Assembly (NCBI GenBank): GCA_014607495.2
Contig: CP053171.1
Coordinates: 1,364,001 to 1,428,000 of the forward strand
Direction: 5' to 3'
DNA length: 64,000 nucleotides
Source of the DNA: Carposina sasakii
Lineage: Eukaryota; Arthropoda; Insecta; Lepidoptera; Carposinidae
Made by a program: the position numbers and the translations under genes. Below, piece by piece: positions 2,486 through 62,392 of the stretch (its first letter is position 1; each line of letters opens with the position of its first letter). The notes below the pieces were generated by a model that did no database searches, was not told the origin of the DNA, and saw only the letters and a list, made by a program, of their open reading frames with translations.

Positions 2486-3555
2486 TACACTACGGACAGG
2501 TTAGGATGACTTAAGATCTTAAGGCAGCCTTTCCACCACAGATTTGCTATGCTGAGAGATGCGTGTGATATCCACAAATTATATTAATTGATCCTTGAAA
2601 GAAATGATATTTATTAGCTTAAAACATGGTACAATAAAGTTATTATAATAGGATTGCCATCTTACTCGTAAACTTTGAAAACCAGGATTCGAGGAAGAAA
2701 TATCAAGACATTTCGATTAAAACCCAAGACTATACATTATGTGCGAGCCCAGTGACAATACGATTGGAGGGAGTTAGTGGCGTGCGAATTTCAAAACATA
2801 GGTCTTTAACACATTCAGTGCCGGCGACTACGTATTTGCTTCTTTTAGGCTTTCTAGAGGTGCCGCTGACGCTTATTTGCCCGATGTCGGCATCCTTAGA
2901 AAATGTGCCGACAGCGAATGTGTCAGGACTCTAAAAATCAGGATGATGCTTAAAAACTATCCAGGACAGCCCAGGATACCCCAAAAAGCAGGACATGTCC
3001 TAGGAAAACAGGACGGTTAGCAACCCTATTTTATAATATTATTAGAACAGAGACATGTTTCGCCAAAATATGTGGCAACATAGAATAACTTTGATAGGTA
3101 GCTGTAAAGCGCATGCGTAGCAACGTAGATTACTGGAAGGGCAGTCTAAGGTCGAAGAACAAGAGTATCCTAAAGCTCGAATTCAAAAACCCATCACATC
3201 ACATCACACATCACTTGACATAATTTACGGCATTAATTAATTTAGGTGTCACAAAGTTATAACTCATTTGTTAGTCTGATCCCTTAAGGGTTTGCCACGG
3301 AATAACTAATAGTAGTACGTCCTTTACTAGATTTTAGATTAAAGGTAGGGTTCACAACATTTGATCAAACTATGCTTAGAAGAATAAGTTCCTCTATGCC
3401 CTAGGCATGCGGTTAATGCAGAGGTTATGCGAGATGAAATAAATATGAACATTATAAATTAGTTTTAGTATTGGATTATATTATGCTATAAATATTTATT
3501 TACTCATAAAGTAAATAAAATAAAATTACTCTCTTTTTTACTAGTAAATATAAAC
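2486..3555. other. Mostly unassigned, with weak MITE-like fragments
   Basis: 2809-2935 has imperfect inverted ends (CACATTCAGTGCCGGC and GCCGACAGCGAATGTG) that could mark a small element. 2941-3030 ends in GGTTAGCAACCCTA, resembling the end of the hAT-type element at 44377. TGTTTCGCCAA near 3057 recalls a motif in the 6938-7513 palindrome. The rest is featureless. Confidence 0.35.
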
Positions 3556-3745
3556 AGAACTCGAGGCTCCATTAGAATACATCAGCATGTAGTTCCTTTT
3601 GTACATGTCGTAAGAGTCGACTTAGGAACTCACTAGCAACTTGTCACTAGTCTTTTACATCTCATGCTAAACGGGGTAAAGGATCTCCTCTGTGACCTGT
3701 AGCAGTTCTGGCTACCCCATTTCGGGAAATCGGCCGTGTCTGTAG
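3556..3745 (+). mobile_element. Family E repeat copy
   Basis: It contains the family landmarks in order: TAGAATACATCAGC, CATGTCGTAAGAGTCGAC, ATCTCCTCTGTGA, and GGCTACCCCATTTCGGGAA. Family E is non-coding, about 210 bp long, and present more than a dozen times in this window. Its class is unknown to me. Confidence 0.7.
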
Positions 3746-4689
3746 GTTATTTTTAAAGGGGGGTTTTACTCAAAGGAGTATATCAACTCCATTGGGTCAA
3801 GTAAATGCAGTTTTTAAAAAGTACTCAAAATTAGGCAGTGATCAACAGCTCGAATATTTACAGCTGAAGAAGTAGATTTGTAGGTAAACAATCATACCCT
3901 AATGCAATGCAATCTGCCCTTACCAAGGATTAATGTTTAAAGCCAGGTCGTTAGTACTTTGAATCCGACCCCAGCTTTACTAGATAAGGTGCCCCAAAGG
4001 GATAATTTAGTTCACAGTGGCTTATATAATGAGAACTACAAACAATATATTTAGTAGTTAATCTAGAACTAGAAATTGCTTTAGGCAAATGAAAGATATT
4101 TTCTCTGTATAATTTAAATAAAGATATACGAGTAAGACTCTTGCTTTTCTAATAATAAATTCAAATTATGAAGATACTAAGTACTTATACGTTTACCAGT
4201 TTTTTAATATCAACGTTAAGTAGGCAACCAATCCCGTCGTGCTACTCGTATTATCATGTCATTATCCTTTAATGTGATTGGTTGGCCGAGAAAGAGTCCA
4301 AATTTCAAACGTAAAAAATAAAGGCGACTGCCATCGCTTTGCTCGCGGTTATTAAGTATGTATGCAAGATTTATTTTATATAACTTGTGTGAATGATTTC
4401 AAGCATAAACTTACCTATGGTTTAGTAATGTCAACTAACATGATTTAATATACTAGCAAAGTAAATATAGACAACAGAGGATTGGGTAAGTTCGAATTGT
4501 AATTTCATATAGGGTTCTGTGCTATCGATATTAACTTATTTTTAAGGTTGTTTGCACGGGGCCCCTTGTTATCTATGATAGAACTTTCTTACTAGCTAAT
4601 GGCAACATGTATTCATTTAAGAGAAAGAGTTTAGTACCGACGACGTAGAGACGATGGACGCATATTCTTTACATACATAGATAGATAAC
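3746..4689. other. AT-rich stretch, nothing recognised
   Basis: No coding or repeat signal found apart from two TACTCGTA-type octamers (4127 and 4243) and a short inverted CAACCAATC/GATTGGTTG pair (4226 and 4276). Confidence 0.5.
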
Positions 4690-4870
4690 CGATTGGCCGA
4701 AATGGGGTAACTAAACTGCAGGGTCATAAACGTTCTACTAGTCACATTTAGTTTGGCAAGGAGAGATGTTGGTGTTCAGTGACAAGTTGCTAGCTTCTCG
4801 CCTGAAAGTATTTCTGAGTTTCTACGTCAACTCTTACGACATGCACGGAAGCAGATGCAGTATTGTAGTA
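4690..4870 (-). mobile_element. Family E repeat copy
   Basis: Minus-strand copy: GGCCGAAATGGGGTA near 4695 and CTCTTACGACATGCACGGA near 4830 are the reverse complements of the family landmarks. It is diverged and lacks the last ~20 bases of the GATGCGGGG end. Confidence 0.65.
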
Positions 4871-5352
4871 AAATTCCGTATCAGCTAGAGACTTATTAAT
4901 TTATACACAGATCCATTTATTATTCATCGTATACAGTACCCTAAAACTACACAAGAAAAACGTAAACAAAACGTAACTAACCGTGCATTATTCTTTTGTT
5001 ACTCTCCGAGAATACAAATGGCGAAGAAGTAGTTTTTTTTTTCATTATTCTACGGGCACACAAAATATAGCTTTTGTTATTCTTACAGCCTTGAAAGTCT
5101 TATATTACAAGACGGCTCTGAAAAAAGGGATAATAATTTGTAATGTAATGTACTTAAATATGGTAAAGGTATAAAAAATATAAATATATAAAGGTACGGT
5201 TTAGGGTATTATTCCTTCATTTGAATTTTAACAAACTCTTTTGAGCCTTAACTATAGCTTATTATTATAAATATAAATATTCATTTAAAATTTTAGAACT
5301 CGTTAATGCGCGTAATGTATTTTGCATTCTACGCTGTTTACTCGTACAAAGC
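4871..5352. other. AT-rich stretch, nothing recognised
   Basis: Only short chance ORFs. One TACTCGTA octamer at 5339. Confidence 0.5.
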
Positions 5353-5640
5353 TGCCTTCATTTATTTATTTATAAAAACATTTTCAAAGCATTACAGCTT
5401 GCGCCAATGTGCCTTGAAAGCTAAATAATTAAGTAAATCAATTACGAACAAAGACATACAGGTTGTTACCTATCATTCGCTATCTCACAGTACCTCAGAC
5501 AATCCCGACACACAACCGTCCATCCGCTTGCAAACAATAGGTCACATTCAGGTGCTGAAGCCAGGAGCGCTTTAAGCAGCACCAAAGCTCGGAGAAGCGG
5601 CGAGTTCTTCTGAGCCATGGTGACTTATCTATTCAGTTAC
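5353..5640 (-). mobile_element. LINE 3' end (copy 1; partner at 23690)
   Basis: Read on the minus strand this is a short ORF, about 100 bp of 3' UTR containing GCGCAAGCTGTAATGCTTT, and an ATAAATAAATAAAT tail. The plus-strand region 23690-23965 has the same order and a matching UTR and tail. The layout suggests the 3' end of a non-LTR retrotransposon; clade unknown. Confidence 0.6.
5466..5618 (-). pseudogene. 50-codon ORF in LINE 3' end
   Basis: ATG at 5618 in a good context (CACCATGG) and TAA at 5466-5468. The peptide starts with a hydrophobic leucine/alanine run (LVLLKALLASAP) and ends with four cysteines (ECDL...CRDCLRYCE). Alone it looks like a secreted-protein exon, but 23715-23783 encodes a clear relative: ASAPECDL is shared exactly and CRDCLR pairs with SRECLR. 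It sits directly before a shared LINE-like UTR and A-rich tail. I therefore read it as the last part of a retrotransposon ORF, not a host gene. Codons are more GC-rich than the flanks. Confidence 0.5.
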
Positions 5641-5681
5641 CATCTGTAGGTTACTGTTATTGTACGCTGTTTTAATATCGA

Positions 5682-5895
5682 CAAAGTTATCTTTACATAC
5701 TGGTACGATAAAATGTAACGAATCGATGTTTATGCACGCTAGTCTCAAAAAAGGCTGAAACGATTTCGATGCAGTTTTCAGGAATATATTGTGACAGGTC
5801 TCACTTAACATATAGGCTACTTTTTATCCCAGGAAAATGTTTTTATCCCGGATAATTTCGACGTTTTGTTTTTTCTACAGTCCACGCGGACAGAG
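5682..5895 (+). mobile_element. Helitron copy, 3' tip lost
   Basis: It matches the body of the 20681 and 50758 Helitrons: GATTTCGATGCAGTTTTCAG, the ATCCC-GG motifs and CAGTCCACGCGGAC. The terminal hairpin and CTAGT are missing; the sequence breaks after CGCGGACAGAG. Confidence 0.75.
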
Positions 5896-5904
5896 GTAAA
5901 TAAA

Positions 5905-6000
5905 ATGCTTTGACGGATCATTGCACAACCTTAACTAGAGATCTGAAACCTGGGAGAGTATGTTCTTTGTATGACGTAAAGATAAGCCGATAAAAAGCAG
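5905..6000 (+). mobile_element. Helitron type-2 fragment
   Basis: AAATAAAATGCTTTGAC and ATGTTCTTTGTA are shared with the type-2 Helitron at 9417-9607. Only the 5' half is present. Confidence 0.5.
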
Positions 6001-6014
6001 CCGTATGTATAGGA

Positions 6015-6128
6015 CTTGTACATATATACCCTCAAAATTGGTCAGAAGTCGCACTATGTGGTTCCATCGACCCTTGGTGCTCTGCCTACCCCGTAAGGGA
6101 TAAAGGCGTGATTATATGTATGTATGTA
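6015..6128 (+). mobile_element. RTE-tailed repeat, 3' part
   Basis: It starts at ACCCTCAAAATTGGTCAG and ends with CTACCCCGTAAGGGATAAAG and a TATG-rich tail. That end is the same as the 3' end of the RTE LINE at 47433. Confidence 0.75.
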
Positions 6129-6341
6129 TATGACTCATTTCAAAAAATGGTAATTATAATTGTAGCTTATACCACGGAGAGAAAAGAAGGCCTATGCATT
6201 TATAAATAACATGCGATAAACAGTATAAGCGTTAAGCTTGTAACTTGTCGATAAATCATTTACATCTGTCCCAGCTATGTTAAACGTGACTATGGGATCT
6301 CCTCTATGATTTTGTATTTCTGTACCCTACCGTGAGTTTAG

Positions 6342-6510
6342 TGTAACAAAAAATATTAAATTTTAAGCGAATAGCTATGTAATAAGCCCACTAAGAGAAC
6401 CTATTTCCAAAATTTGAGACTCCAAAACGCATGTTTATTTTTCAAAATTGTATGAAAATTCCAGAGTTGTTTAGAAATTCTCCATACTATCTGGGAAAAT
6501 AAATATATCT
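6342..6510 (+). mobile_element. Family B MITE, left half
   Basis: It shares GCGAATAGCTATGTAAT, GAGAACCTATTTCCAAAA and TTCTCCATACTATCTGGGAA with the full copies at 29097 and 35648. The right arm is missing. Confidence 0.65.
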
Positions 6511-6937
6511 TTACATTTATGTAAACAGTACAGGCAAACTAAGTCGCGGGCTAGCAACAAAGAACCTTTCTGGTTATCAAGCGTGCCTTTATCTTAATAA
6601 TAAAAGTTTTAAAATTTTCCCATTTCAATAAAATTTTAAACTCTAAACTTTTTCCCCGTTTAAGAACAAAAAATACAAGTCGTAATAATCAACAGGGGCT
6701 CATAGCAAGTAATTATTAAAGCAATTTAAGATTAAAATAGCTCTACGGGATATTGCCTTCGAAACTTGGAGATTTGTTTCACCAAGTAAACTGAGACGAG
6801 GTTCTCCTTATAAAGTTAAGGAGATTTTCACTCTGAATTGAGAGGTTCCTCTTTGTGGCACCTGGATGTGATAAATTTAATTAGCGAATTGTTTTAGATA
6901 AATTATTCTGTCTGTTATAAAATGATAATAATGATTT
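6511..6937. other. AT-rich stretch, nothing recognised
   Basis: No ORFs, terminal repeats or matches elsewhere in the window were seen. Confidence 0.5.
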
Positions 6938-7513
6938 ATTCACTATGGGTGCGCCCACCACCGGGCCCTACACCCTCCACTGACCCTCGGATCTGATAAC
7001 TCATAATTGCGACAACAGGCACTTGCACTAACTACAATCGCCATGAGAAACCAGACCCGAGCACCTAGCATGCAAGACGATACATTGCACCATTCCGAAA
7101 TCAAAAACTAGATAAATAATCTACATATGTTTCGCCAACAACCGTGGCATCCTCAGGATTATAGAAATTAATAATTTAGTAAACCACTAATTATTATGAA
7201 ACTCTAAAACTCAACACATTACTTACACTTTTTTTTTTGGGTTTTAGAGGTTCATAATAATTAGTGGTTTACTAATTTATTAATTTCTATAATCCTGAGG
7301 ATGCCACGGTTGTTGGCGAAACATATGTAGATTATTTATCTAGTTTTTGATTTCGGAATGGTGTAATGTATCGTCTTGCATGCTAGGTGCTCGGGTCTGG
7401 TTTCTCATGGCGATTGTAGTTAGTGCAAGTGCCTGTTGTCGCAATTATGAGTTATCAGATCCGAGGGTCAGTGGAGGGTGTAGGGCCCGGTGGTGGGCGC
7501 ACCCATAGTGAAT
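6938..7513. repeat. Large near-perfect palindrome (275-bp arms)
   Basis: The left arm 6938-7212 and right arm 7239-7513 are reverse complements with only a handful of substitutions and no net gap, around a 26-bp loop holding a T run (about 7229-7238). Outer ends read ATTCACTATGGGTGCGCC and its complement. No frame stays open across the arms. It resembles a foldback element or a tail-to-tail duplication. Transcribed, it would form a ~275-bp hairpin RNA. Confidence 0.9.
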
Positions 7514-7654: not shown

Positions 7655-7870
7655 TTAGCCTCACCAAGAGAGGGATAAGATGTAGACATACTCGTAGAGT
7701 GCTAATGTCATACTAGCAGTTTTGATGCACTATTAGACTTTTCGGTGCCTCACAATTCCAGTCCTTGACACTTAGATTCTATTAGTATAATGTACAGTTA
7801 TGTACTACATTAACTGATGTTTTGTAACGTATACTTACTCGTAGTAATGCAATCTAAGTGTCTCTTTCCG
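7655..7870 (-). repeat. Family D repeat copy
   Basis: 7670-7790 matches the reverse complement of 44216-44345: GAGTGCTAATGTCATACTA, TTTTCGGTGCCTCACAATT, GACACTTAGATT. This copy has 6 extra bases, CTCGTA, at 7691-7696. A second AATCTAAGTGTC at about 7851-7862 makes an inverted pair with GACACTTAGATT. Confidence 0.6.
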
Positions 7871-9416: not shown

Positions 9417-9607
9417 GATACTCGTATAGATAAAATGCTTTGACCTGCCTTAGTAACTGACTGACTTTAGAGACCTGGAAATTGAAGGATGTGTTCTTTG
9501 TACAATTTAGGTATCCGATAGCAAAGGCTTTCCCAAAATCCCCTACGGAAATAAAAAAAACGGGGAATGTAAAGTTTGCGCGGACGAAGTCGTAGGCGTC
9601 CTCTAGT
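9417..9607 (+). mobile_element. Helitron type 2
   Basis: The 3' end shows GGACG ... CGTCC (about 9578-9600) and then CTCTAGT, with CTAGT at 9603-9607. The body shares ATGCTTTGAC with 5905. No coding capacity. The 5' TC end is not clear, and a TACTCGTA octamer sits there at 9419. Confidence 0.65.
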
Positions 9608-21689: not shown

Positions 21690-21785
21690 AGTACTCGTAG
21701 TCTCGGGGTATCTGCTGGATGCAGGCCGCTTCCAACCGGTCGCAGTGGAAGTCATTGGAGGAAGCCTATGTTCCACAGTGAACTT
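21690..21785 (+). pseudogene. LINE C-terminal scrap
   Basis: TATCTGCTGGATGCAGGCCG and GGAGGAAGCCTATGTTCCAC recall the LINE ends at 32820 and 51783 but the frame is broken. Confidence 0.45.
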
Positions 21786-22204: not shown

Positions 22205-22440
22205 AATTATCAATAAAGAAATGGGAAAAATTCCTTACCTGAGTGGGAATCGAACCCACGACCTCTGCATGCCGTGCTTGCGCTTTAACCACTGAGCTAC
22301 CGGGTCAATTACTAGGATGACGAATTTTACCATCTCTTTTCTAAATTACATATTGGCAACGTTATTTTTCATCCCGATAGCTATACACTAGTCAAATCTT
22401 GGCAAACAAATCAGAATCCCTCAGCACAATATTAAAAAAC
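22205..22440 (-). mobile_element. SINE-1, full copy
   Basis: On the minus strand: ATGGTTGATCGTTTTT leader, CTAGTGTATAGCTATCGGGA, GACCCGGTAGCTCAGTGGTT (A box), GGGTTCGATTCCCACTCAGG (B box), then the AT-rich tail. The anticodon region differs from other copies. Confidence 0.85.
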
Positions 22441-25526: not shown

Positions 25527-25755
25527 ACGGCCGATTGGTCTAGTACATAGCAACCCTGCTTGCGACACCATAGGTCCTGGGTTCGAATCCTGGTAGGTGC
25601 AAACATTGAGATTATAATGAATATCGATGTTTGTTTCCGAGTCATGGATGTTTCTATACCTATCTATGTATTTATATACCGTTGCTTAGTACCCACGACA
25701 CAAGACCTTAGGGATCTTAGTGTGGGACTAGGTTTATTTATTTATATATATATAC
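25527..25755 (+). mobile_element. SINE-3 copy
   Basis: A-box-like CGATTGGTCTAGTACATAG and B box GGGTTCGAATCC, followed by GATGTTTGTTTCCGAGTCAT, a TATATACC region, CCACGACACAAGACCTTAGG and a T/A-rich tail. Related copies lie at 34283 and 55406. Confidence 0.8.
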
Positions 25756-26247: not shown

Positions 26248-26968
26248 TCTATACATATATAAAAGTGTAACGGATCGCTGTCTGTACATGGAAGATATAC
26301 AGTGTAATTTTTTGTCGTCAACGTTCCCGAAAACTGCGAAATCTCCTCATCATCACGATCATTTTTCTCCTTGGAAGCATACCCGGGAAGTGTCTGGTTC
26401 CCAAGATATTAGGGTCCAAAGTTGAGTAAATAGACTTGCATTTTTCTGCATAAATGCACATAGATGCGAGTAGCAAGATTTTTTCACGAGAAATAATTAA
26501 TATCTGTCTATGAAAAAACTTGCATAAACACTGGACACTATAAATTTCGCCCGATCAAGTAATAAAAATAAAAAAATTCAAAAAAAATTTACATCATTTC
26601 CCAAAAATTTTTTTGCATAAACTTACTTTATTTGATGTATAGAATACTCGTACGTACCCTTCGTTAAGGGTGGCAACGAAAAAACAACCTGTATAAGAAA
26701 AAATATTATAGAATATCAGCGCAATAGTACCCAAAACAATGATTTTTGGAATTTTTGTCTGTTTGTCGGTCTGTCTGTTTGTCTGTGCACACTAAGCTCA
26801 GAAACGGCTGAACCGATTTCGATGCAGTTTTCAGGAATATATTGAAATAGGTCCATTTAACATATAGGCTACTTTTTATCCCGGGAAAATGTTTTTATCC
26901 CGGATAATTTCGATATTTTGTTTTTTTTTCTGTAGTCCAAGCGAGCGGAGTCACGGGCGTCCACTAGT
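26248..26968 (+). mobile_element. Helitron type 1 with nested MITE
   Basis: Both ends obey Helitron rules: A then TC at 26248-26249, and CTAGT at 26964-26968 followed by T. The body matches 50758 except for a 392-bp insertion (26300-26691). CTTTTTATCCCGGGAAAATG and the inner GTCTGTTTGTCGGTC part are intact. No ORF. Confidence 0.9.
26300..26691 (+). mobile_element. Family A MITE nested in Helitron
   Basis: TA then CAGTGTAATTTTTTG to ACAACCTG then TA. Comparing with the uninterrupted Helitron at 50758 places the insertion at a TA, so the target duplication is TA, as in Tc1/mariner elements. CTCGTA is extra at 26647-26652. Confidence 0.85.
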
Positions 26969-27863: not shown

Positions 27864-29096
27864 CAGACTATTTCGCAATACAAAAAACCGACGTAAAAAT
27901 TATAAAATCAATTACCATTTACAGATTAAAATAACAACAATTAATTCACACATAACTCAATAGTTAAGAAAGAAGTTTCAATCTAGATTAAAAAAGAAAT
28001 AGATAAAAAAAACTCTTCTCCTGTAAAATTAAACCAATGGTAGATAGAACAAACAAGCACTAAAGCGACGATTTGTTACCTAATAAAATTATGCTAATAC
28101 CTAAATACCTATATAAATCTTTCAAAGTATCCTTTGCCTGATTACTACTAATACATTTTTAGACTTAAGTATGTAATTATTATTATTGGTAATACTCCAA
28201 AATGCTTACATACTCGTATTTATTGCATATTTATTGCACCCAAGACACATTGTATTGCAACACCAAGACAATCAATACAGAAACACTTCTAGATCTATAA
28301 AGCTAGAACCATCTCCTCAATTTATAGTTAGGTATGGGGACGAGGAATAATTGTTTTCTCTACGGACGCTCTTACTCTCACTTAGCGGTGTAAAATTATA
28401 TTCGACAGGCTCATTTACTTTTATTATCGTTTCGGGTCTGTAATTCTTCACTTCGATGAGGATATTTTATGACTTGTACGTTTTCTTATTAGAAAAAATG
28501 TCACTCCCAATGTTGTGCTGAAATATGGGGTACTAACGGCCACCCGCGCCTTCGTCTGCATGAACTTTATAGCCTATGTGTTATTCTGATCTATAGGTAT
28601 AAGCTATATTCAGTCGTTTTTGCGTGAAAGAGTAACAGACCCATACACGGACGTATATGAATAAGTACCTAAATAAATTAAAATAAATTAAGACATCCTC
28701 GTAAACTTTAAATCTATTAGTAGGTATAAGATAGGACATGTATGTATGTGTTTTGCGGTTCAAATTGTTTTTGTAGATTTATTTAAAAAATTCTTAATTA
28801 AGTGGATGATATCAAAACGTAGTCTATTTGTCTTGAAACAAAAGATCTGTGTCATTCTACACCTTTCCGAGAAGCTACTAGGCCAGACTCATTAAATACA
28901 AGAAGCATTCTTGTACAACAGTCTTGTACAATATAGCTATGGATGATTACCTTGTAATTGAATATTATACAAAATGTTTCTATTAAATTCGTAGCATGCA
29001 CGTAGCAAACTACGAAATTCGTAGTATTCGTAGAAGAATGACTGAAGTTGGTATAAAATTATGTATAACGCATAGTGATGGTTTGTTTTGTTTATA
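27864..29096. other. AT-rich stretch, nothing recognised
   Basis: No gene, RNA or repeat supported. One TACTCGTA at 28211. Confidence 0.5.
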
Positions 29097-29821: not shown

Positions 29822-30078
29822 GTTGATCGTTTCATCTTTAAACATTGTGCTTAGGGATTCAGCTTTGTTTGCCGAGATTTGGCTAGTGTATAGCTATCGG
29901 GATGAAGAATAACGTTGCCAATATGTAATTTAGAAAAGAGATGGTAAAATTCGTCATCCGAGTAATTAACCCAGTGGCTTAGTGGTTATAGCGGCTGGCA
30001 CGGTTTGCAGCGGTCGTGGGTTCGATTCCCACTCGGGTGAAGATTTTTTCCATTTTCTTTATTAATAATTTTATAATA
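29822..30078 (+). mobile_element. SINE-1, full copy, right member of a facing pair
   Basis: ATGGTTGATCGTTTCAT leader, TAGCTATCGGGATGAAGAAT, GTGGCTTAGTGGTTATAGC (A box), GTGGGTTCGATTCCCAC (B box), AT-rich tail. With 29709-29820 it makes a head-to-head arrangement. Confidence 0.85.
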
Positions 30079-31212: not shown

Positions 31213-31567
31213 AAACTTAAGAGCGGGTACCAAGGTAAATTGTTGATTTTCGATTTCATTTTTACACTTTATAGAAAGGAACAAATAATTTGAATTTTCA
31301 AATATAGATATTAAATTATTTTTGCAATAAACTGAATTAAGCGAAAACATGAAATTCAAATATTTTCTCGATAGAAATTCATCCCAGAGTTGGGTCTAAT
31401 TTTCAATTTAAATCGATTTATTTCGGAAACTATGCTACATATTAATTTTTAAAAAATATATACAAAATTGTATTACCAAGAAAATGGATTAGCGGTTTTA
31501 AAAAATATTGTATACTTTACGAGTAATTGAAATAAAACTAGTTTGGCGCTTACTACGTTCTTATATA

Positions 31568-31639: not shown

Positions 31640-32572
31640 GAATAAAAAAGGAACACCATAAGAAGCATACTCGTAACAACCATCAACATAACAAAGTTTT
31701 TTTTCACTGCGGCCAAAATTGCGCAAAAATACAATGATACTGTAAGCCTTAGATATGTTATTTTGCAATAAAATTTATATAGTTATTTATAGTTATTCTC
31801 CTTAAAGTTTGGTAAATTATATAATTATTGAAAGTACATATTGAAGCATATCAAATAAACAAAATAGTGATAATCAAATGTGTACGTAAATATGTAATCA
31901 CTAATCACGTAAATGCTTAAAAGAAATCGCCAGATATACCTATATAAGTACTAATTATTATTCCTCAAAAGCTGCTATACACTATGAGTATATAAATATA
32001 ATGCAGATAATTATTTAGATGACGGTTTCTCAAACGCTATAAATTTTTACCATCAATTTACTAGTTTCCTAGTTTTATCATAATGTGTGGCCATTGAAAG
32101 TGCTCTATTTTTTTTTATTTATTCATAATTACAGAATATACTTTACATAATTAAAGAAGGGTCGCATAATCCCTGGTTCATTTATGCGTGACCCGTGATT
32201 ACGAGTAGTGGGTGATATTATGGCGTTTCATATAACCTACCCTTTGTATTACAGCCTGTATACGAGTACTTACCGTATTTCATCATCATAGCACTTCATT
32301 ATTTGCTGACGTTTATTCGTCTGAGATAAAAATGATTGATGACTTACTCGGTTATTGTAAATGAAGACCGGTTGTAACGAAACACAGACAATAATATATA
32401 GTTACTATCTCATGAGTTATGCAATTCCCTATTTATTTCTCGCGATTAATTTTTTTGTACAAACGGCTGTGTTTCCAAAATAGAGTTGACAGATTTACAG
32501 GATGGTGAAAGAGAATCTACAGGCACGTTTAGTACAGCAGGGCCAGATGTTAAAAACCAGTCACAAACTGAC
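31640..32572. other. Mostly unassigned
   Basis: 32235-32262 (ACCTACCCTTTGTATTACAG) looks like the right tip of a family B MITE. Otherwise no structure found. TACTCGTA-type octamers occur at 31668, 32200 and 32261. Confidence 0.4.
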
Positions 32573-34282: not shown

Positions 34283-34440
34283 GCCTGCGGCGCCATTAGG
34301 TCCTGCGTTTGAATCCGAATTTGAATCGATAGAAGCAAACAATGATACTCGTATATGATGAATGTCGAAGTTTGTTTCCGAGTCATGGATGTTTATATCT
34401 ATGTATTGATACTCCTATATTGCCCATTGATACAAGATGT
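34283..34440 (+). mobile_element. SINE-3, diverged
   Basis: CCATTAGGTCCTGCGTTTGA and TTTGTTTCCGAGTCATGGAT align with 25560-25650 and 55425-55500. It carries a TACTCGTA gain at 34346-34353 and a possible decayed one (TACTCCTA) near 34410. Confidence 0.65.
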
Positions 34441-40142: not shown

Positions 40143-40308
40143 TTTATAAAATATTAATAAGAAAATAAAATAAAGAAATTCACCCGAGTGAGATTTGAAC
40201 TCACGACCACACGCATTCCGTACATCGCTCTACCAACTGCGCTATCGGGTCACTTAACTCGGATGATGAATTTTACCATATCTTTTGATTTACGTTTTTG
40301 CCAACATT
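40143..40308 (-). mobile_element. SINE-1 copy (subtype 2)
   Basis: On the minus strand GACCCGATAGCGCAGTTGGT and GTGAGTTCAAATCTCAC, then the AT tail. It directly follows the family C MITE. Confidence 0.8.
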
Positions 40309-40539: not shown

Positions 40540-40843
40540 AAACATGGAAAACTGGTGTCGCTGACGTTGGCGTGCAGACCGCAAGACTGAAGTGGAACTG
40601 GGCCGGACACATATGTCGAATGCACCCAGAAAGATGGGCAAAGATAGCCACTGATTGGTTGCCTACAGACGGAAACCGGCGTAGGGAAAGACCTAGGAGA
40701 AGATGGAGGGACGATTTGGATAAGTTTCTGCCAGATTGGGCCACTATAGCCGGAACAAGACAAGTGTGGGCTCAAATGGAGGAGGCCTTTGCCCAGCAGT
40801 GGGACACGGAAAGTGCTATTAAAAAAATTGATGTACTCGTATA
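40540..40843 (+). pseudogene. LINE ORF C-terminus
   Basis: Frame: TARLKWNWAGHICRMHPERW, then RRRERPRRRWRDDLDKFLP, then AQMEEAFAQQWDTESA, stop at 40842-40844. WAGH..R and RPR-RW-DDL are C-terminal hallmarks of endonuclease/reverse-transcriptase LINEs. The reading frame is intact over ~90 codons, but no catalytic domain precedes it. Two long antisense frames (40388-40862) are shadows. It belongs to a subgroup distinct from the 51783 family. Confidence 0.75.
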
Positions 40844-41017: not shown

Positions 41018-41931
41018 TAGGGTTGCCGCTCGATAGTCCACTATCGATAGACTATCGATAGTTGGGCAAAAACAATAGTATCGATTCCTATCGATACTTT
41101 GGCTAGTATCGATAGCCCCGTGAGGGGCAATACTATTGACACACAGCAATACCATCGATAGTATCGATACTATTGCAACTGAATATTGCAATAACAATCG
41201 ATACTATCGATAGTATCGATACTATCGATTGTTTTATCCCATCGATAATGACCTTTTCCTCAATAGTATTGCTAATACCATAATTGTCTAGCTAGTGGCT
41301 GACAGGATATGAGATGGTTTTAAGGTTTTTAAATATTTGCTTATCATCATCATCAGCCTATTGCAGTCCACTGCTGGACGTAGGCCTACCCGGGGCACGC
41401 TACAAGACTGCCATTGGGGGTTTTTGCCCATAGTCACTACGCTGGGCAGTCGGGTTGGTGACCGTTTATTTAAATATTTGCTTATAATAATTTTTATTGT
41501 CATTTAAGTTGATAACAATAAATTACAAGGTTTATGAGGGTAAAATGATAAAATCCTCCTTAAATACTGTTGCACTATTTTACATTTAGTATACCGTTTT
41601 ATTTTTAACATTTACCGTTTTTTTACATTTAGTATATACAGGTCACATCACATAAAATAGTTACATCAAGATTACAGTCTCAAAATATTTACTAGCTACA
41701 TCAGCCAATATTCATGCACAATATTATTGAATCATAGCCTACTATCGACCGCGCAACATATCGATGGTATCGATAGTATCAATTATTATTACAATAGTCA
41801 TGACCGATACTATCGATAGTATTGCTGTGTGTCAATAGTATTGCCCCTCACGGGGATATCGATAGTATCGATAGGCCTATCGATATTATGGATTATTTTC
41901 GAGGTCAACTATCGATAGTTCGGCAACACTA
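41018..41931. mobile_element. hAT-type non-autonomous element with TATCGATA arrays
   Basis: TAGGGTTGCCG (41018-41028) and CGGCAACACTA (41921-41931) are inverted ends with one mismatch. GGTATGTT is duplicated exactly at 41010-41017 and 41932-41939. An 8-bp duplication and TAGGG ends fit hAT. Both subterminal regions carry TATCGATA, about 7 copies on the left and 6 on the right, and an inverted block (CCCCGTGAGGGGCAATACTA and its complement). A LINE tail is nested inside. Confidence 0.9.
41345..41468 (-). mobile_element. LINE 3' tail nested in the hAT element
   Basis: Flanked by an exact 17-bp duplication at 41328-41344 and 41469-41485 (TTTAAATATTTGCTTAT). On the minus strand it ends ...CTGCAATAGGCTGATGATGA. 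The same sequence occurs at 21211 and partly at 23966. Only ~124 bp were inserted. Confidence 0.85.
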
Positions 41932-44216: not shown

Positions 44217-44345
44217 ATTACTTGTAGTAATGCAATCTAAGTGTCAAGGGCTGGAATTGTGAGGCACCGAAAAGTCTAATGGTGGATCGAAACTGTTAGT
44301 ATGACATTAGCACTCTATGTATACATCTTATTCCTCTCTGGTTCT
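44216..44345 (+). repeat. Family D repeat copy
   Basis: Opposite orientation to 7655-7790; here CACTCTATGTATACATC lacks the 6-bp CGAGTA seen in the other copy. Confidence 0.65.
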
Positions 44346-44376
44346 GGCTACCACCTTCCGGGAACACAGCCACGTG

Positions 44377-46605: not shown

Positions 46606-46675
46606 TATCAAGAAAAATAACTAATACGAGTATTACATAAATTCTACTCAACTTCTTCTATGTTTTGTTATAATA

Positions 46676-47836: not shown

Positions 47837-48127
47837 ATATACATACATACATATAATCACGCCTTTACGAGTATCCCTTACGGGTAGGCAGAGCACCAAG
47901 GGCCGATAGAACCACATGGTGCCACTTCTGACCAATTTTGAGGGTATAGTTGAGATGTAAAAGTTCAGTTAGTAGTGACAGGTGGTCAGCCCGTCACCTA
48001 CAAAACACCAAAACCCTCTTGTCCCTCTACTGACTTGTACAGTATGCCCGGGAAGAGAAGCAGCTGTAGTATACGTTTTTTTTTTCACTCCCAGAGCAGC
48101 ATAGAAGTATAATATATATAATAGTAA
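47837..48127 (-). mobile_element. RTE-tailed repeat, full copy, with 13-bp target duplication
   Basis: (TACA)n tail, then the usual body to CAGAGCAGCATAGAAG near 48108 and about 20 AT-rich bases. GCGGGTATAATAC lies on both sides (47824-47836 and 48128-48140). Near its tail it carries an extra CGAGTA (47868-47873) that the other copies lack. Confidence 0.85.
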
Positions 48128-48144: not shown

Positions 48145-50242
48145 TTATACTCGTATTTACGGATCAAGCAAGCCTTCAACAATATTAAAATAAATTGTGT
48201 GTTATCGTGCCTATAGGCATTTAGAAATAACTAATATGCACTTAGGCTCATCAATGAAATTAATTAATTTACGGCATCAGAGCAAACCCAAAGTAACAAA
48301 TAATTAATTAGTTTTATGTTGCTGGTGTTATGATGAATGTTGATGTTTGTATTTAAATATTTGTTTCTATTTATCCTGTGAGTGCCGATGCGGGGCTTAT
48401 TATCTGACTACGTAAACAGTGATGAAGAAGAATTTGTCATGCTTATGAGTCGATTTTACTCGGGCATTTCTGAATACTGCACTTGTTATTTTGTTTGTTA
48501 AATTTGTATTGTATTAGGTAATGTAATGGACTAATTTTTCATGTTCGTAAGCTTAGTATGGGCAAGATACAGATCACTTTGTGTGTAATTTGCATAATCG
48601 CGACCTACTGGGCATTCAATTACCTTAGTAATCAAGGGTCACGAACAATAAGGGATTATGTCTTCATTCTAATTAAATAGATTTGCAGTTTGGCTATTTA
48701 TGACCGTGTGTGCATGGAGGTCCTACGATGCGGGGATCTTTAGTTCCTTACTGTGACATTACTTTTACATCAGCTAAACAGCTGATGAAGAAGACTCTAA
48801 AATTAATGTTACTTCGGGAATTCTGTAAATGCATTACGTAAGACAAACTCGTGACCTTAAGGTACCCGGGCATTCTCGATAAGCTAGCAATAATAAAACC
48901 ATCTGTCCTCGTATTGTTACGACAAAACAAAATGTGGCATTGTTAGCGTCATGGATGTAGCTTCAAATCCTACGGAGATCATGGGGATGGTTCTACGTGC
49001 AGCATTTTAGCCCTACGAGGCTGGCATTGTCCCGTGAATTTAAGCCAGTTAATGACTCTAACTCCACGACCGTGTTGAAAAAAATCCTCACACACAGGTG
49101 AAGGTACATCTTGTACAAAATTCGTTCTACAGGAAACAGCTATAGCAGGTAGGGTTCAAAATGGCACGTTTTTATACAAGATCTTAAGTTACCCCTTACA
49201 TGTGTTTTTGTACCACAGATAATGTTTGTAACTTATTTAATGACAATATAGCATGACATGAAGAAGCTGAATTAATACAATTTATTACATTATTTTGACT
49301 GTAAAGTACCTTCAGTTGCATTCCTGCGTATTGGTAATGGTATATATCTTTATAAACAACTAGTTTGTTGCACAAATCGATACAAAATATTGTGGCTCTT
49401 TCGTTCTGTATCAAGAACTAAAGAACTTTATAGAAACATTTGTGAGCAGTAACACTATCGTATAACTCAACACAATTGTTCAGCATTTTAGTATTTGCCT
49501 GGCTGTCACTTGCACCCTGTATACTAGTAGGGCGTCGTCGCGATGTTTAGCCGTAAAGGTAATAAACCTTGACACACTGACTGAGATTTACGTAAAAGAA
49601 CGCCCTCTGAGCCAGAATCAGAGGTGAGTTACCAGAAGAAAACTTTTTCAAAGATAAATCTATGCATTATTTTATAAAGGGTTTATACTTGCTTTTAATA
49701 CGAATAGGTTTATCACAAAAAAAATCGACACCTTAAAGGAAAAATAGAAGTAAATATTAAATTAGACCCTGCTGATTTCTTAATCTCACTTTTTTTCTGC
49801 TATGCTGGAGGAAATCTTTTATAGAGATAAGACGTGTTTGTATGCAATTATTTTATTAGTTTTTCTGTACTATTTACTATAGTAGTAGTGTATTATATGA
49901 AATAAAATATTAACTTTAACCTAAATTTAAAATATTATATGTTTGAATAAAATATTTAATATTTATAAGTAAGTCGTATTTAAAATTTAATCGAAATTAA
50001 TATCATCTGTTTTTATTACTGTCCAGTAATATTAAATTATTAGTTCCAATTAAATAAATAAAATGATCTTCAAATTATATTAAGTATTAATTTTCCTCGT
50101 ATTTATGAAATGTTATTCAAAAAATTTATGACTACGTTCAGGGAACTTTAATTTTATACTGATTGTTTCATGTAAATCGGGATACACGAAATGAATATAT
50201 ATTATGTACCTATATAGGTACCATACCTACAACCATCGGTAA
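48145..50242. other. Mostly unassigned, family E scraps
   Basis: 48380-48400 (GAGTGCCGATGCGGGGCTTA) and 48720-48900 (GATGCGGGGATCTTTAGTTC, CGATAAGCTAGCAA) are diverged family E pieces. 49790-49890 resembles a LINE UTR (GGAGGAAATCTTTTATAGAG). No gene is supported. Confidence 0.4.
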
Positions 50243-51257: not shown

Positions 51258-51628
51258 CAGGGTGATTTTTGGTCGTCAACGTTCCCGAAAACTACGGAAT
51301 CTCCTCATCATCACGATCATTTTTCTCCATGGAAGCATACCTGGGAAGTATCTGGTTTCCAAAATATTAGGGTCCAAAGTTGAGTAAATAGACTGCGTTT
51401 TTCTGCATAAATGCACATAGACGCGCGTAGCAGGATTTTTTCACGAAAAATAATTAATATCTGTCTATAAAAAAACTAACATAAACACTAGACACTATAA
51501 ATTTCGCACGATCAAGGAATTTAATTTTTTTTTTTTTTTTAAAAAAATTTTCCCAGCATTTTTTTTGGCATAAACTTACTTTATTTCATGTAAAGAATAC
51601 GTACTCTTCGTTAAAGGTGGCCACAGAT
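51258..51628 (+). mobile_element. Family A MITE, right tip decayed
   Basis: TA then CAGGGTGATTTTTGGTCGTC and all internal landmarks to CGTTAAAGGTGGCCACA; the CACCCTG tip is lost. Confidence 0.85.
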
Positions 51629-51782
51629 AAACATCGGATCAAAATGATGATTTTAAAAAATATTGCACTACTGTTTGTTCCAAATAAAAATTATTTAAAT
51701 ATCGGCGCAATAAAGTAATTAATTCTAATAATATATTAACAGTTAATAATTAATAATATATTATATATAAGATTGTTTAGTT

Positions 51783-52371: not shown

Positions 52372-52812
52372 ACCAGTAGCATGCCGTCCGCGACTCACGT
52401 AAATAGCGCTTTTTGTGTCGCCTAAATGTCAAAATTCGCGACAAACTGACGTTTCACACGTCAAGCTGATATTGAAACCCGCGTCACGCCGCGCGCAATA
52501 TACTCGTATAACCCGCGGTTGCGAGCATGGCGCTTAAATTCACGCGGGGTCTTATCGCTAATTTTGACATTTCCTGTGACTGTATATCAATTCAATTACC
52601 GATTCAGTGTTGAACGTAATAAAGTTAATTTTACTTTCGCAATGGTAGCACCACTTCCAAAAAGACGTTGTCAAAAAGTTGTCCAAAAGACGCGTGGCGC
52701 GTGGGTTCAGAATCTCTGTTATTGCCTTGCTCGCATTTGGTTACTGGAAACACGCGCGCGGTTGATAAAATAACCCGCGTCTCGTTTTTTTCCATGCTAC
52801 CAGTGCAGGAAA
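52372..52812. other. CpG-rich block with inverted tips
   Basis: CACCAGTAGCATG (52372) and CATGCTACCAGTG (52793-52805) are near-inverted (11 of 13). ACCCGCG recurs at 52479, 52511 and 52773. A plus frame MVAPLPKRRCQKVVQKTRGA begins at 52642 and ends after 43 codons at TAA. TTCAGTG upstream (52603) could be an arthropod initiator. It may be an old TIR element or a promoter/first exon. Neither reading is secure. Confidence 0.3.
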
Positions 52813-54521: not shown

Positions 54522-54774
54522 CAGGATATAATACGAGTAGAAAGGGTATGTTAAGCGAAAAACTATGTAAATAGCTCACTATAGAGAACCTATTTCCAAA
54601 ATTTGAGACTCGAAATCACGAATAGTTTATTTTTCAAGATCGTATAAACATTCCTGAGTTGTTTAGGAATTCTCCATACTATGTAGAAAAATAAATATGT
54701 GATTTCGAGTCTGAATTATTGTAAGTAGGTTCCTTTAAGTGGGCTTTTTACATAGCTCTTCGCTTAACACACCG
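54522..54774. mobile_element. Family B MITE, 11 bp after family A
   Basis: TA then CAGGATATAA, TACGAGTA (gain, 54532-54539), GAAAGGGTATGTTAAGCG and the inverted arm to CGCTTAACACACCG. The right tip is decayed. Confidence 0.8.
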
Positions 54775-56308: not shown

Positions 56309-56318
56309 TTTAATTTAG

Positions 56319-56947: not shown

Positions 56948-56949
56948 AG

Positions 56950-57554: not shown

Positions 57555-57811
57555 GACATATAAACACGCCTTTATCCCTTACGGGGTAGACAGAGCACCA
57601 AGGGCCGATAGAACCACATGATGCCACTTCTGACCAATTTTGAGGGTATAGTTGAGATGTACAAGTTCGTTAGTAGTGACAGGTGGTCAGCCCATCGCGT
57701 ACAAAACACCACAACCCTCTTGTCCCTCTACTGAATTGTACAGTATTCCCTGGAAGAGAAGCAGCTGTAGTATTATACGTTTTTTTTTTCACTCCCAGAG
57801 CAGCATAGAAG
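57555..57811 (-). mobile_element. RTE-tailed repeat, full body
   Basis: CGCCTTTATCCCTTACGGGG to CCCAGAGCAGCATAGAAG; the TACA tail is short. Confidence 0.85.
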
Positions 57812-59383
57812 TTATACCTAGATATAAACCTGCTGTATAGTATGCTAGCATGCTAGTTGAAAAATGAAAAGGAAAATTGTTTTATTCTTTGACATAAACA
57901 TCGCACATAATACAGTTGTATGGAATTTCCTATTAAGTTAAAGACTAACTTGTGCCAGGAAACTCCCCTTCTCCATACCAGTTAATATTAAATTGCTTTA
58001 AAAATGCATGAAAAAACAACAGGCAAGTTAACTAGGTCTAATTAAATTAAAAATAAATTAAATTAAGGGCAGAAATAACGATAGGAATCTACTAAAGAAT
58101 CAGAAGTTTAAAACATAAAACCGAAACTCTTTCTTTACAATTTTTTTAATATATAAAACAAGGATATCTAACAAGTATTTGTAGTAACATATAGGTATAT
58201 GTGTCAAGCTCTGCTTTCACGTTATCATTAATAACAGCGTCAAACATAAACCAAATATAATCGTAGAAGCTATATAATTATATACCGTTTATTTGTTCAA
58301 GTAAATTACTGACGTTTTTTACTAACGACTAAACAATACAAAACAACATAAGATTCTTATTTAAATAGATAAAAAAAACGCTCGCTGCGCTCACTTTCAT
58401 TTCGTATATCATAACCTTCAAACCAATCCAAAATCCTCGAGGTTCGAAAGGCAGATGCCAAAAAGTTCTCCACCAATGAGAGACTCGTGAAACAGACATG
58501 ACCTCACTAAGAGCAGACACCGTGGCGCCATCTCTTGAAAGTCATTGCCAAGTTTATGTTTATTCCATAAGTTTGGAGATAAAGGTACTGGCAGTAAGCC
58601 AACTAAAGATAGACGTCTTTATTATTCGTTTCATAGATTCTATGTATAGGTATATAGTTCCTATGCCTGATTTCGGAACTAAATTTTTTTGCATGCAGTG
58701 AAATAGAAAATGTATCATACACATAGTAACCAGCGCCATCATCCATCGGAACTATACGGTGTAACGCACTTTATCACTTGGATTTTGGTGGAACTTTACG
58801 CAATCGTTTGAGTTGATACTAACATTACGTAGAAACTAGCGCCAAGTCAGGAATGTGTGAATTAGACTAGTGAATACTTTTATAGGTTTCAAGGTTTTAT
58901 CCCTGACATGTGTTTTTAGTTTCGAAGTATTTTGGCATAAAGATAGCTCCTGGTAATCAGTGCATTTATCTTTATTTAAAACTTATTTCAAATCATAGTT
59001 TTTATACATACCTATAGGAAAGGAAAAACTGACTTATAATTCTATATAAATGTTTACCTTTCCCCTGTATTATACTTTTTAAACATATACGAGTGGGAAA
59101 GAAAAAACTAGCTTAATCCTACATAAATGCTTACCTTTTCTCAAATGTAAAATAAAGTTATATATATAATAAATATATTTTCTTATTCTTATGCTTTATT
59201 CAATACAGTAAAGTTTTTATAAATAAAGTTTACAACAAGGAAGATGTACAAATATTTCTTTAATTCCTAATAATAAAACACGTCACAGTTAAATAGTTGT
59301 AAATACACTAGAACCTATAAATCAGGGGTAGCCAAAACTGCAAGACTATGAAAGAGAACCAACGGTCATAATTTTACATAACA
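57812..59383. other. AT-rich, mostly unassigned
   Basis: 58660-58720 shares a block with 55030-55080 (reverse). 59020-59140 holds a diverged tandem duplication (GGAAAGGAAAAACTGACTTA and GGGAAAGAAAAAACTAGCTT). The minus frame at 58329-58520 has no recognisable motif. Confidence 0.4.
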
Positions 59384-59512
59384 TATACATATACATACAT
59401 ATAATCACGCCTTTATCCCTTACGGGGTAGGCAGAGCACCAAGGGCCGATAGAACCACATGGTGCCACTTCTGACCAATTTTGAGGGTATAGTTAAGATG
59501 TACAAGTTCAGT
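59384..59512 (-). mobile_element. RTE-tailed repeat, 3' half
   Basis: TACA-rich tail, CCCTTACGGGGTAGGCAGAG to TTAAGATGTACAAGTTCAGT. Confidence 0.8.
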
Positions 59513-59857
59513 TGTACATAACATATAGGATATAAATAATACTGACTAAAACCTAGACTTTACACAAAAAGGCAAGATCTCCTATTTTTAGAAAGTTAGA
59601 CGTCCTTGGCTTACACCATAACCCTGAGAGGATTGCAGACATACCGGCGCCTGACGACTCGGGTCAATCATGTGTTCCTAAACAGATGTTTATTCTCCCT
59701 TCCGTCCTTCATTTTCCTAATCGAAATCGAACTAATCTAATAAGGGAACTTTGTTAGCTGTAGATTTCTTTCTTAGTAGCATATGATACGAAACTTCGTG
59801 CTACAAAACTACTACGAGTAAAGAGATGTGCAAATTATTATAATTTTTGCTTATTCT
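59513..59857. other. Unassigned sequence
   Basis: No supported feature. Confidence 0.5.
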
Positions 59858-60150
59858 GTGCTGATGCAGGGCTTCATTAGAATACGCCTCGAGCACACCG
59901 GATGCGTATGCGTACACGTAAGCGTAGACGTACACGTACCTCTGAGTTGTAATGTATGGAACTGTATAAGACAGGACACACCGTTTGACGTCTACGCTTA
60001 TGTCTACGCATACGCATCCGGTCGGCCCGTGCCTATACAGTTCCATACATTACAACTCAGAGGTAAGTGTACGTCTACGCTTACGTGTACGCATACACAT
60101 CCGGTGTGCTCGAGGCTTTATCCTCTGTCTCCGCTATTCTAAACGTGGTT
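59858..60150 (+). mobile_element. Family E repeat split by a hairpin element
   Basis: TGTGCTGATGCAGGGCTTCA (59858) and CCGCTATTCTAAACGTGG (60132) are family E pieces on either side of the hairpin at 59887-60115. Confidence 0.6.
59887..60115. mobile_element. Hairpin element with 82-bp arms
   Basis: Arms 59887-59968 and 60034-60115 are near-perfect reverse complements, starting CCTCGAGCACACCGGATG. They are rich in alternating GCGTACACGTA-type sequence; the 65-bp loop holds another partial copy of that motif. No ORF of substance. Confidence 0.88.
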
Positions 60151-60207
60151 GTCTTTTTTATATTAGGTAGATGTACAATCATAAATATACAGACGTCTGT
60201 ATTTACA

Positions 60208-60505
60208 ATGATGATCTCCGAACGTAATTCGGCCAAGGCGACCAATCTCTACGGAGGTTGGCCAGGTACACAGGAGATATTATAGTGCACATGTGTGTGC
60301 GCAAACACAGATGCACTCTCTATCCCGTTACTCTCATAGTCCGATGGAAATGACGGAAAGCCGACACGACCGGAGAAAGATCAGGTGCAGGACCAACGGT
60401 TTTACGTGCTTTGAAATAAATTCATTGGTACAGGCCCGTGACTGGGATCGAACTTACGCCTCCCGCATGAGGTGCACGTCTTAACCACTGAGCTATCACC
60501 GCTTA
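60208..60505 (-). mobile_element. SINE-2, near full length
   Basis: ATGATGATCTCCGAACG tail side, then body, then GTGACTGGGATCGAACTTAC (B) and CTTAACCACTGAGCTATCAC (A). An internal deletion removes the GCTAAGTGACAATTT linker. Confidence 0.85.
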
Positions 60506-60514
60506 TGTATGTAT

Positions 60515-60860
60515 TCACAATATAGGGTAGTCAGAACCGCAGGACAACAACGGAGATCCTATAGCCACTAGCATAGCAGCCCCCCTAGCATGACCACGCA
60601 TCGTGGATATCGTATCGTCTCCATACAAAATTCAACATGGCGGCTATACGTATTTTGACAGGGGAAATGTCGAAAAATCGATTTATCATATCGTGTATCG
60701 CAGGCCATGCTAGGTTTGCAGGGCCAGATACGAAATGTCTGTGAGATATAGCTAGTTTATCGCCTGAGAGAACATCCCTGAGTTCCTTTGTCGACTCTTA
60801 TGACATGTACAAAAGGGGATGCAGCTGATGTATTCTAGTGAAGCCCCGCATCAACACATG
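60515..60860 (-). mobile_element. Family E repeat with nested inverted-tip insert
   Basis: ATAGGGTAGTCAGAACCGCA, TAGCTAGTTTATCGCCTGAG, TAGTGAAGCCCCGCATCAAC in minus order, split by 60581-60718. Confidence 0.75.
60581..60718. mobile_element. Small inverted-tip insert
   Basis: CCTAGCATG near the left edge and CATGCTAGG near the right edge are inverted. Inside are GATATCGTATCGTC and TATCATATCGTGTATCG. It interrupts family E, which shows it is an insertion. Superfamily unknown. Confidence 0.6.
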
Positions 60861-60864
60861 ACAA

Positions 60865-61069
60865 AGATTTTTTATTCCTAAAAAAAGTCTACAGCCTAGA
60901 CAATCGTCATAATTTATTTGTTTTTTTTACTAGTACTTAAAAATTTTATTCGTCTCTCAAGTTTTTAAGTGATCATTAATTATTGCGCTGTTAAAGGATT
61001 TTTATTACTGGATTCATAAATGATAGCATAAATTATGTTTTTGTAGACTACGATAAAAAATAGTGTTAC
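60865..61069. other. AT-rich, nothing recognised
   Basis: No supported feature. Confidence 0.5.
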
Positions 61070-61210
61070 ATTAAGCCGGGGTGAGTCCTTAGTTATACAT
61101 ATAAACCTTTTTCTTAAATCACTCTATCTATCAAAAAAACCTCATCAAAATCTGTTGCGTAGTTTTAAAGATCTAAGCATACATAGTGAGAGACAGCGGG
61201 AAGCAAATAG
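61070..61210. mobile_element. Helitron-like fragment
   Basis: CTCATCAAAATCTGTTGCGT and TAAAGATCTAAGCATACATA are phrases I associate with lepidopteran Helitron-type repeats. No ends are visible. Confidence 0.4.
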
Positions 61211-61544
61211 GAAAATTTGGTATAACCGAGCTGATGGCATGATGTACACTCATTAGCACTCGTGGAAATTTACAACATAATGAACCTTTTGCAAAGAACT
61301 CTTCAAAGATACTTCGAGAAGGTTCCGCAGCATAAATTAGGGCGCTAATTATGCATTTTAATAATTAGGATAATGTTTGAAATTAAATTTGAAAAGAAGA
61401 TCTCATTATAGAAAAATAAAAAATAATATACAAGAGAAATTTATAGAACGCAGATTCAAGAATTAACAATTTAAGCTTTTTTTCGAAAATGAGTAGCAAA
61501 TATTGAGTTGCATCAGATGTACTCGTATTGTAGTAGCAAAGTAC
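61211..61544. other. AT-rich, nothing recognised
   Basis: No supported feature. Confidence 0.5.
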
Positions 61545-61853
61545 CTGGGGGTCTACTCTGAAATGCCGCTTTCGAATCTTTCGGTCCGACCGAAGCCCGA
61601 CCGAATCGAAGCCTTTAAACAGCCTTTGACCCTACTACGAAATTGCTTTCGGATTCATTCATCTGAGTTCACAACTCATTCGGAACCATAGAGAATAATT
61701 CACATTGACTAATATTATAAACCTGTCAAATAAAGTTCGATTGGACCGAATGAAAAAACGGCGCGACTGACCCGATCGAAGGTAGTTCGTAGTAGGAAAC
61801 ACCTCGATATTCGGCCGATACTTCGTTTATCGTCACTTCAGAGTAGACCCCTG
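61545..61853. mobile_element. Inverted-repeat element (309 bp)
   Basis: GGGGGTCTACTCTGAAATG at the left and CACTTCAGAGTAGACCCCTG at the right are inverted with few mismatches. Inside, CCTACTACGAA and TTCGTAGTAGG are also inverted. No target duplication is obvious. Confidence 0.75.
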
Positions 61854-61904
61854 CATCTTCATCTGCTACCAATCTATCTGTCTATGGTTTCATTCATACA
61901 CATA

Positions 61905-62092
61905 ATTCCCGAAATGGGGTAGTTAGTACAAAATTATCACTAAAGAGGTCCTGCAGCCATGTATAAGAACAGTCACAGCTAGCTGTCCAGTTCATCACCT
62001 GAGAAAACACCTCTGATTTCCTTAGTCGACGTCTACGACATGCACGGAAGGTGATGCAGCTGATGTATTCTAGTGAAGCCATTGATTATCAC
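61905..62092 (-). mobile_element. Family E repeat, near full length
   Basis: CCCGAAATGGGGTAGTTAGT, GTCCTGCAGCCATGTA, CACGGAAGGTGATGCAGCTG, ATTCTAGTGAAGCC in minus order. Confidence 0.78.
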
Positions 62093-62392
62093 AGAGTACA
62101 CTGACAATTACTAAAAACTTTACCATTGAAAATCCTTCAAAACTTTAATTACCTGTCGTTTCTTATCTTTACGTGTGCGAAAGAGATAGAACACGGTCGG
62201 AGCCACCTATAAACAATTGTTTGAAAACTAAACTCATTTAGGGAAAGGTAGGCTGGTTTGTTACAGTATTGGATAGTTGTAGCTAAGATAACAAACAGTG
62301 TATCAACATTGATAAGTGATTGGGAATTGGGGGTTGGGTATCTGCCTGCTAAGCCAAATTAACAATGTACTCGTAACATAGGAAATAACATT

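Follow-up and report, generated by a model that had tools for sequence, protein, structure and literature searches.

The 64,000-nucleotide stretch of the Carposina sasakii genome analysed here (contig CP053171.1, positions 1,364,001 to 1,428,000; hereafter the window) carries an exact octamer, TACTCGTA or its opposite-strand form TACGAGTA, in large excess over chance. The signature is real, genome-wide and exact, copies of it appear as 6-bp gains at TA dinucleotides within repeats, and the same genome holds one mariner transposon whose ends supply the four bases between the two TAs. Most of these octamers are probably excision scars of CGAG-ended mariner (IS630-Tc1-mariner) transposons, a reading to which we assign a probability of roughly 0.68. 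The connection of scar and element, a stagger of four nucleotides (nt), pairing of the overhangs and many jumps per surviving copy would all belong to this reading.

Excess of the octamer in the window and across the genome

An earlier note on this stretch, made from the letters alone, had counted 24 octamers in the window. All 24 are found at the starts it gave and none had been missed; 16 lie on the plus strand and eight on the minus strand (exact-word count over the whole 64 kb; Table 1). Its rough chance estimate of two to three agrees with Markov models, which expect 2.5 (order 2) or 2.1 (order 3) occurrences. When sites that share related flanks or lie no more than 40 bp apart are counted once, 23 of the 24 are left, and an origin from a microsatellite or a repeat family is therefore rejected. 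After de-duplication no 8-mer of the window is stronger than the octamer, which has a log10 P of -15.8 against -6.4 for the runner-up (22,381 8-mers are present, and de-duplication was limited to those passing a raw-excess filter). Rival 8-mers collapse under the same treatment: GATGATGA drops from 27 occurrences to 10 distinct contexts and TTCCCGAA from 20 to six, and 13 of the 15 sites of TATCGATA are confined to 41,042-41,910, an interval that forms a local array or foldback. The flanks of the octamers are unrelated, no flanking position is conspicuous, and the 24 single-base variants pooled occur 55 times against 55.3 expected.

The genome sample consists of 21 stretches of 10 kb from the same assembly, for which ten contigs of 11.8-19.1 Mb each were sampled. 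Retroelement fragments and ACAT-type tails give this genome a lepidopteran look. Where single stretches have to be told apart they are named L026, L028, L030, L035, L044 and L045, the first two of which lie on contig C1. These 210 kb contain 52 octamers against 6.7 expected (51 without overlap, as the count includes one overlapping nested pair). In raw excess, with contexts not de-duplicated, the octamer ranks third in the stretches, after the simple-repeat words CATCATCA and GATGATGA. Window and stretches together (274 kb) yield 76 octamers against 8.9 expected, whereas the single-substitution words show no excess (188 against 208.5). The excess over single-base variants on which the earlier note had staked its case is thus present in these 274 kb, a sample of the genome.

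Octamer density is uneven among 10-kb pieces (variance/mean 2.2, P 0.001), with a ratio of 0.75 for core-substituted controls. Strong clustering was considered and rejected: the window alone gives P 0.033 for spacings of at most 150 bp, but over all sequence the spacing inside stretches is ordinary (P 0.17-0.78). A Tc1-type target score reaches z 2.1 at octamer sites and -0.6 at core-substituted words. Two of the stretches show local peculiarities. At L030:8948-8961 the sequence reads TACTCGTACGAGTA, a nested arrangement in which one octamer has apparently been placed in the TA of another, and L026, at the start of contig C1, combines a GC content of 0.64 with few TA sites and is free of octamers.

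Six-bp gains at TA in repeat copies

Within the window, 820 repeat alignments yield 101 distinct short gains. Among the 6-bp gains, the pattern TA-N4-TA fits only three octamers (7689, 26645, 47866) and TATACCTA at 25655. When the stretches are added, 4,221 alignments give 508 short gains, 72 of them 6 bp long (in this tally one site may count twice where alignments differ). The TA-N4-TA form is found in 14 of the 72, and the exact octamer accounts for six of these 14. The remainder comprises TACGAATA (two), TACAAGTA and TACTCCTA (one each) and four TATA/CCTA-type words, some of these alignments being ambiguous. Both TACGAATA gains, at L035:8042 and L028:8559 on opposite strands, are one base off the octamer and may represent either mutated scars or a second core.

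A sibling alignment spans eight of the 76 octamers. The octamer is shared with siblings at none of these eight sites; the opposite pattern, an octamer ancestral in the repeats and lost in the siblings, which the earlier note had named as fatal to its proposal, is not seen. At six of the eight, one or more siblings have a net 6-bp gap (7689, 26645, 47866, 54532, L030:5409 and L035:4806), and a bare TA is what the sibling has at 7689, 47866, L035:4806 and, in one copy, 26645. The remaining two are 34346, with inexact gaps, and L028:1514, where a substitution separates octamer and siblings. The three window gains that had been singled out as clear, at 7689, 26645 and 47866, hold up with minor qualifications: at 26645 the exact empty TA is that of the copy at 51402-51633, other copies differing there, and at 47866 the filled copy is also short of one G in a nearby G run. 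Two further sites had been described as less exact. This is borne out at 34346 by the size of the gaps; the gain at 54532 does measure 6 bp, but its siblings lack the TA (Table 1).

At the clearest sites (7689, 47866 and L035:4806) the gain is 6 bp and the neighbourhood is otherwise little altered. TA is duplicated around four bases where the siblings have an empty TA, and the four bases match the ends of the mariner in L028. Judging from these alignments, the octamer mostly seems to arise as an identical 6-bp insertion at TA. The view of the window as a field of identical 6-bp gains is therefore sound with regard to the excess and the gains themselves, but it does not extend to all 24 sites, since 7836 is probably a substitution and about two octamers are expected by chance.

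A CGAG-ended mariner and the probable origin of the octamer

The 274 kb hold 100 TACGAG...CTCGTA pairs within 5 kb of each other. In one of them 13 of 14 further bases are inverted-repeated, against eight in the next best. This pair delimits a mariner at L028 4410-5367 (contig C1, about 3,004,410-3,005,367), which measures 954 bp between its TA duplications and 958 bp with them; the target duplication flanks it on both sides. Its terminal inverted repeats (TIRs) are 30 bp long and start with CGAG, and 31 of 32 bases match if the TA is included. The reverse strand contains a 198-amino-acid piece with a Mos1 helix-turn-helix (HTH) domain (PF17906, above the cut-off). This piece matches Mos1 transposase structures with an E of 3e-11, is 97% identical to the 331-amino-acid protein P0006 (81% of the query aligned), and has 1,341 relatives at E <= 0.001. 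A complete DD34D catalytic triad was not found in the L028 mariner: TGDES is kept (by eye), but the central part of the gene, which P0006 has, is missing, from which we conclude that it is a non-autonomous deletion copy. The element itself carries an octamer (L028 5234-5241), and the 274 kb contain no further match to it longer than 36 bp. The statement that no element with CGAG/CTCG ends is present consequently holds for the window, but not for the genome.

Under the excision-footprint reading, a mariner would insert at TA and duplicate it, giving TA-CGAG...CTCG-TA, and its later excision would leave each flank with a 3' overhang of four end nucleotides. Outer C:G and G:C pairs would hold these CGAG overhangs together around two central mismatches, and joining followed by resolution of the mismatches to one strand would produce TA-CGAG-TA, or TA-CTCG-TA on the other strand (TACGAGTA / TACTCGTA). 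Because the outer bases of the overhangs can pair, this route could explain a uniform scar. It is also possible, as an argument and not a measurement, that many jumps per copy before its death account for the ratio of scars to elements.

Known relatives offer partial parallels. The octamer resembles a Mos1 product in that TA is duplicated around a few terminal nucleotides, and L028 holds a Mos1-type HTH and transposase fragment; the Mos1 footprint is 3 nt, whereas the scar described here is 4 nt with one dominant product. In Sleeping Beauty, the overhangs pair through outer C:G pairs and the mismatch is resolved. Overhang pairing modelled on the C(A/T)G scar of that element would be the repair route here. 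The Sleeping Beauty footprint is likewise a scar derived from the end overhang, as given in a passage of PMC3878927, although it is 3 nt long instead of 4. Ends starting with CGAG are common: the part of the Rhodnius prolixus mariner table considered (PMC4678618) lists TIRs starting CGAG in 16 of 32 lineages from several subfamilies. Among them are Rpmar11 and Rpmar1, two drosophila-subfamily mariners that start like the L028 element, and by hand count 29 of 33 bases are identical between the listed Rpmar11 TIR and the L028 end. The main text of that study mentions neither 'footprint' nor 'excision'. Hsmar2, a human irritans-type mariner, has ends reading TACGAGGGG in an excerpt of PMC3770610, with the same first four bases as L028.

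Comparison of footprint words adds to this picture. Among eight transposon end types, a strong TA-N4-TA excess is seen for CGAG only. The CAGGG-ended elements of the genome (43 TA-CAGG[G/A]TG ends) show no excess of 3- or 4-nt footprint words. Shorter words of other end types are in excess (TACATA, TACCTA, TACTTA, TATTTA, TACGTA and TAACATA), which may reflect simple repeats. One mixed mismatch product of the CGAG overhangs, TACTAGTA, shows a weak excess (15 against 7.5, P 0.01).

Several observations weigh against an origin by excision. A single CGAG-ended element stands against about 67 excess octamers in the 274 kb, and it was found by searching for exactly these ends. The other mixed mismatch product, TACGCGTA, is not up (2 against 3.3). 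TACGATA, the 3-nt word, exceeds expectation weakly (56 against 41.7, P 0.019), and no excess is seen for the other three 1-nt core deletions, for 1-nt insertions (24 against 37.5) or for joined overhangs (TACGAGCTCGTA, 0). Five words with 2 nt deleted do exceed expectation, but their overlap with abundant simple repeats, among them GTACGTAC and ACAT tracts, makes them unreadable as ragged scars. The CGAG word in large excess is 4 nt long, in contrast to the 2-3 nt of studied elements. Overhangs of Tc1/mariner elements are put at 2-3 nt in a section of PMC3878927, while an excerpt of PMC7913693 gives footprints as 2-4 bp. Break repair is often ragged, as only 8 of 94 excisions in rice, covering several superfamilies, left the exact duplicated target alone (data excerpted from PMC4423477). 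The reconstructed Hsmar2 transposase gave non-canonical footprints in HeLa cells according to part of PMC3770610, where the authors consider its catalytic domain probably not fully functional. Finally, two octamers fit substitution better than insertion: 7836, where the related inverted repeat reads TACTTGTA, and L028:1514, where the siblings read TACTCGTG. Substitutions at a few octamers are unsurprising because about nine of the 76 are expected by chance.

Taken together, no clear excess of ragged scars is seen and scars far outnumber elements, and the earlier note was right to find one identical scar at this density odd. This uniformity remains unexplained and for that reason keeps a TA-directed micro-insertion alive. 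In that case an enzyme would break TA with a 2-bp stagger and add a templated CTCG, duplicating the TA without any transposon, in accordance with the clearest gains being 6 bp with little other change, with ragged products not being clearly seen and with sites far outnumbering CGAG-ended elements. We nonetheless regard such writing as unlikely. To our knowledge no enzyme performs TA-directed tetranucleotide writing, and it would have to be coincidence that the genome holds an element with exactly these ends and that CGAG is common in mariners. A dedicated low-error process of this kind that writes the tetranucleotide here and the dinucleotide of TACCTA elsewhere, in tens of thousands of transposon-free events, appears a shade less likely again. 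Of the two explanations put forward in the earlier note, the Tc1/mariner footprint is the better supported, because a mariner with the exact ends and TA duplications is present in the genome and CGAG is common among mariners; the oddity of the identical scar persists.

Another TA-targeting CGAG-ended transposon or miniature inverted-repeat transposable element (MITE), once common and now lost or rare, might have left such scars. The single CGAG-ended element in 274 kb and the CGAG ends of several mariner subfamilies (PMC4678618, in the part of the table considered) would suit it, but no sharp TA-CGAG remnant family is seen at the 78 TACGAG and 66 TACTCG non-octamer sites (12 and 5 pairs listed), and its prospects are poor. 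The related idea that the octamer is the end of a hidden element was rejected, as the pairs listed share no interior with a sharp TA boundary at these sites; families that share the TACGAG/TACTCG word also share bases outside it. An exact word with unrelated flanks could also come from insertion of a fixed oligonucleotide during sequencing or assembly. Such an artefact would need neither a TA nor its duplication, the regional differences in density argue against it, and the four gains that resemble the octamer (TACGAATA twice, TACAAGTA and TACTCCTA) may have come from it by mutation, although not all of those alignments are unambiguous; we consider an artefact very improbable. HIP1 of cyanobacteria is a hugely over-represented exact octamer, and a short functional motif under selection of this type would share the exactness and the unrelated flanks. 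The octamer of C. sasakii differs in that it arises by 6-bp insertion in repeat copies whose siblings are without it, which makes selection for a motif hardly credible.

If the octamers are true mariner scars, past cut-and-paste jumps can be tallied directly by counting one short word. Extrapolated from the sample (52 in 210 kb, with 6.7 expected) to the first 20 contigs, assumed to total 290 Mb on the basis of the ten contigs seen, the tally would come to some 60,000. Jump counts, jumps per surviving copy and germline break repair would then become measurable in any assembly without finding the elements, and CGAG-ended mariners would have a 4-nt stagger and an unusually uniform repair route. 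Addition of 6 bp at TA also creates small indels, which would hardly show up in repeat annotation.

A literature search gave no earlier report of the octamer as a footprint among the matches listed. Its occurrence in PMC6696609 is confined to a table of bamboo TIR variants. Lepidoptera paper texts bearing the word number nine for TACTCGTA and 12 for TACGAGTA, against 12 for the control TACCAGTA, and no enrichment can be read from these counts; four examples, given as excerpts, are three primers and one barcode-like holotype sequence. Scans for related sequences returned five viral-contig stretches, all from one scan while three others gave none, and 20 stretches in records titled bacteria or archaea.

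Octamer sites and other features of the window

Positions of all octamers in the window are collected in Table 1.

Table 1. Octamers in the window. Strand: +, TACTCGTA; -, TACGAGTA as read on the plus strand.
Position	Strand	Observation
2663..2670	+	exact-word match
4127..4134	-	exact-word match
4243..4250	+	exact-word match
5339..5346	+	exact-word match
7689..7696	+	exact 6-bp gain at TA relative to the copy at 44222-44350 (one sibling)
7836..7843	+	probably a substitution; related inverted repeat reads TACTTGTA
9419..9426	+	exact-word match
21692..21699	+	exact-word match
26645..26652	+	gain in repeat family A; five window siblings without octamer
28211..28218	+	exact-word match
31518..31525	-	exact-word match
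31668..31675	+	exact-word match
32200..32207	-	exact-word match
32261..32268	-	exact-word match
34346..34353	+	two sibling repeats without octamer; inexact gaps of 8 and 5 bp
40834..40841	+	exact-word match
46625..46632	-	exact-word match
47866..47873	-	exact 6-bp gain; empty TA in eight window siblings
48148..48155	+	exact-word match
52501..52508	+	exact-word match
54532..54539	-	6-bp gain, family B; CA in siblings where TA is implied
59813..59820	-	exact-word match
61520..61527	+	exact-word match
62368..62375	+	exact-word match

A second TA-bracketed word, TACCTA/TAGGTA, is in excess as well (472 against 203 in the 274 kb). Its context is palindromic and target-like, with A at -3, R before and Y after the word (score z 10), and three 4-bp gains at TA are found in repeats (window 24023, L044:4419 and L045:2742). 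TACCTA could be the 2-nt footprint of another element, confounded by simple repeats of the GTACCTAC type.

Pfam searches on 10 of the 52 open reading frames of the window (at least 80 amino acids) gave matches below the cut-off only. Rfam reports tRNA matches at 1294-1366, 22235-22306, 29968-30040 and 40180-40251, none of which is called a gene by ARAGORN; perhaps these four are the heads of tRNA-derived repeats. Near the start of the window, positions 286-819 are occupied by a 127-bp tandem repeat in 4.2 copies.

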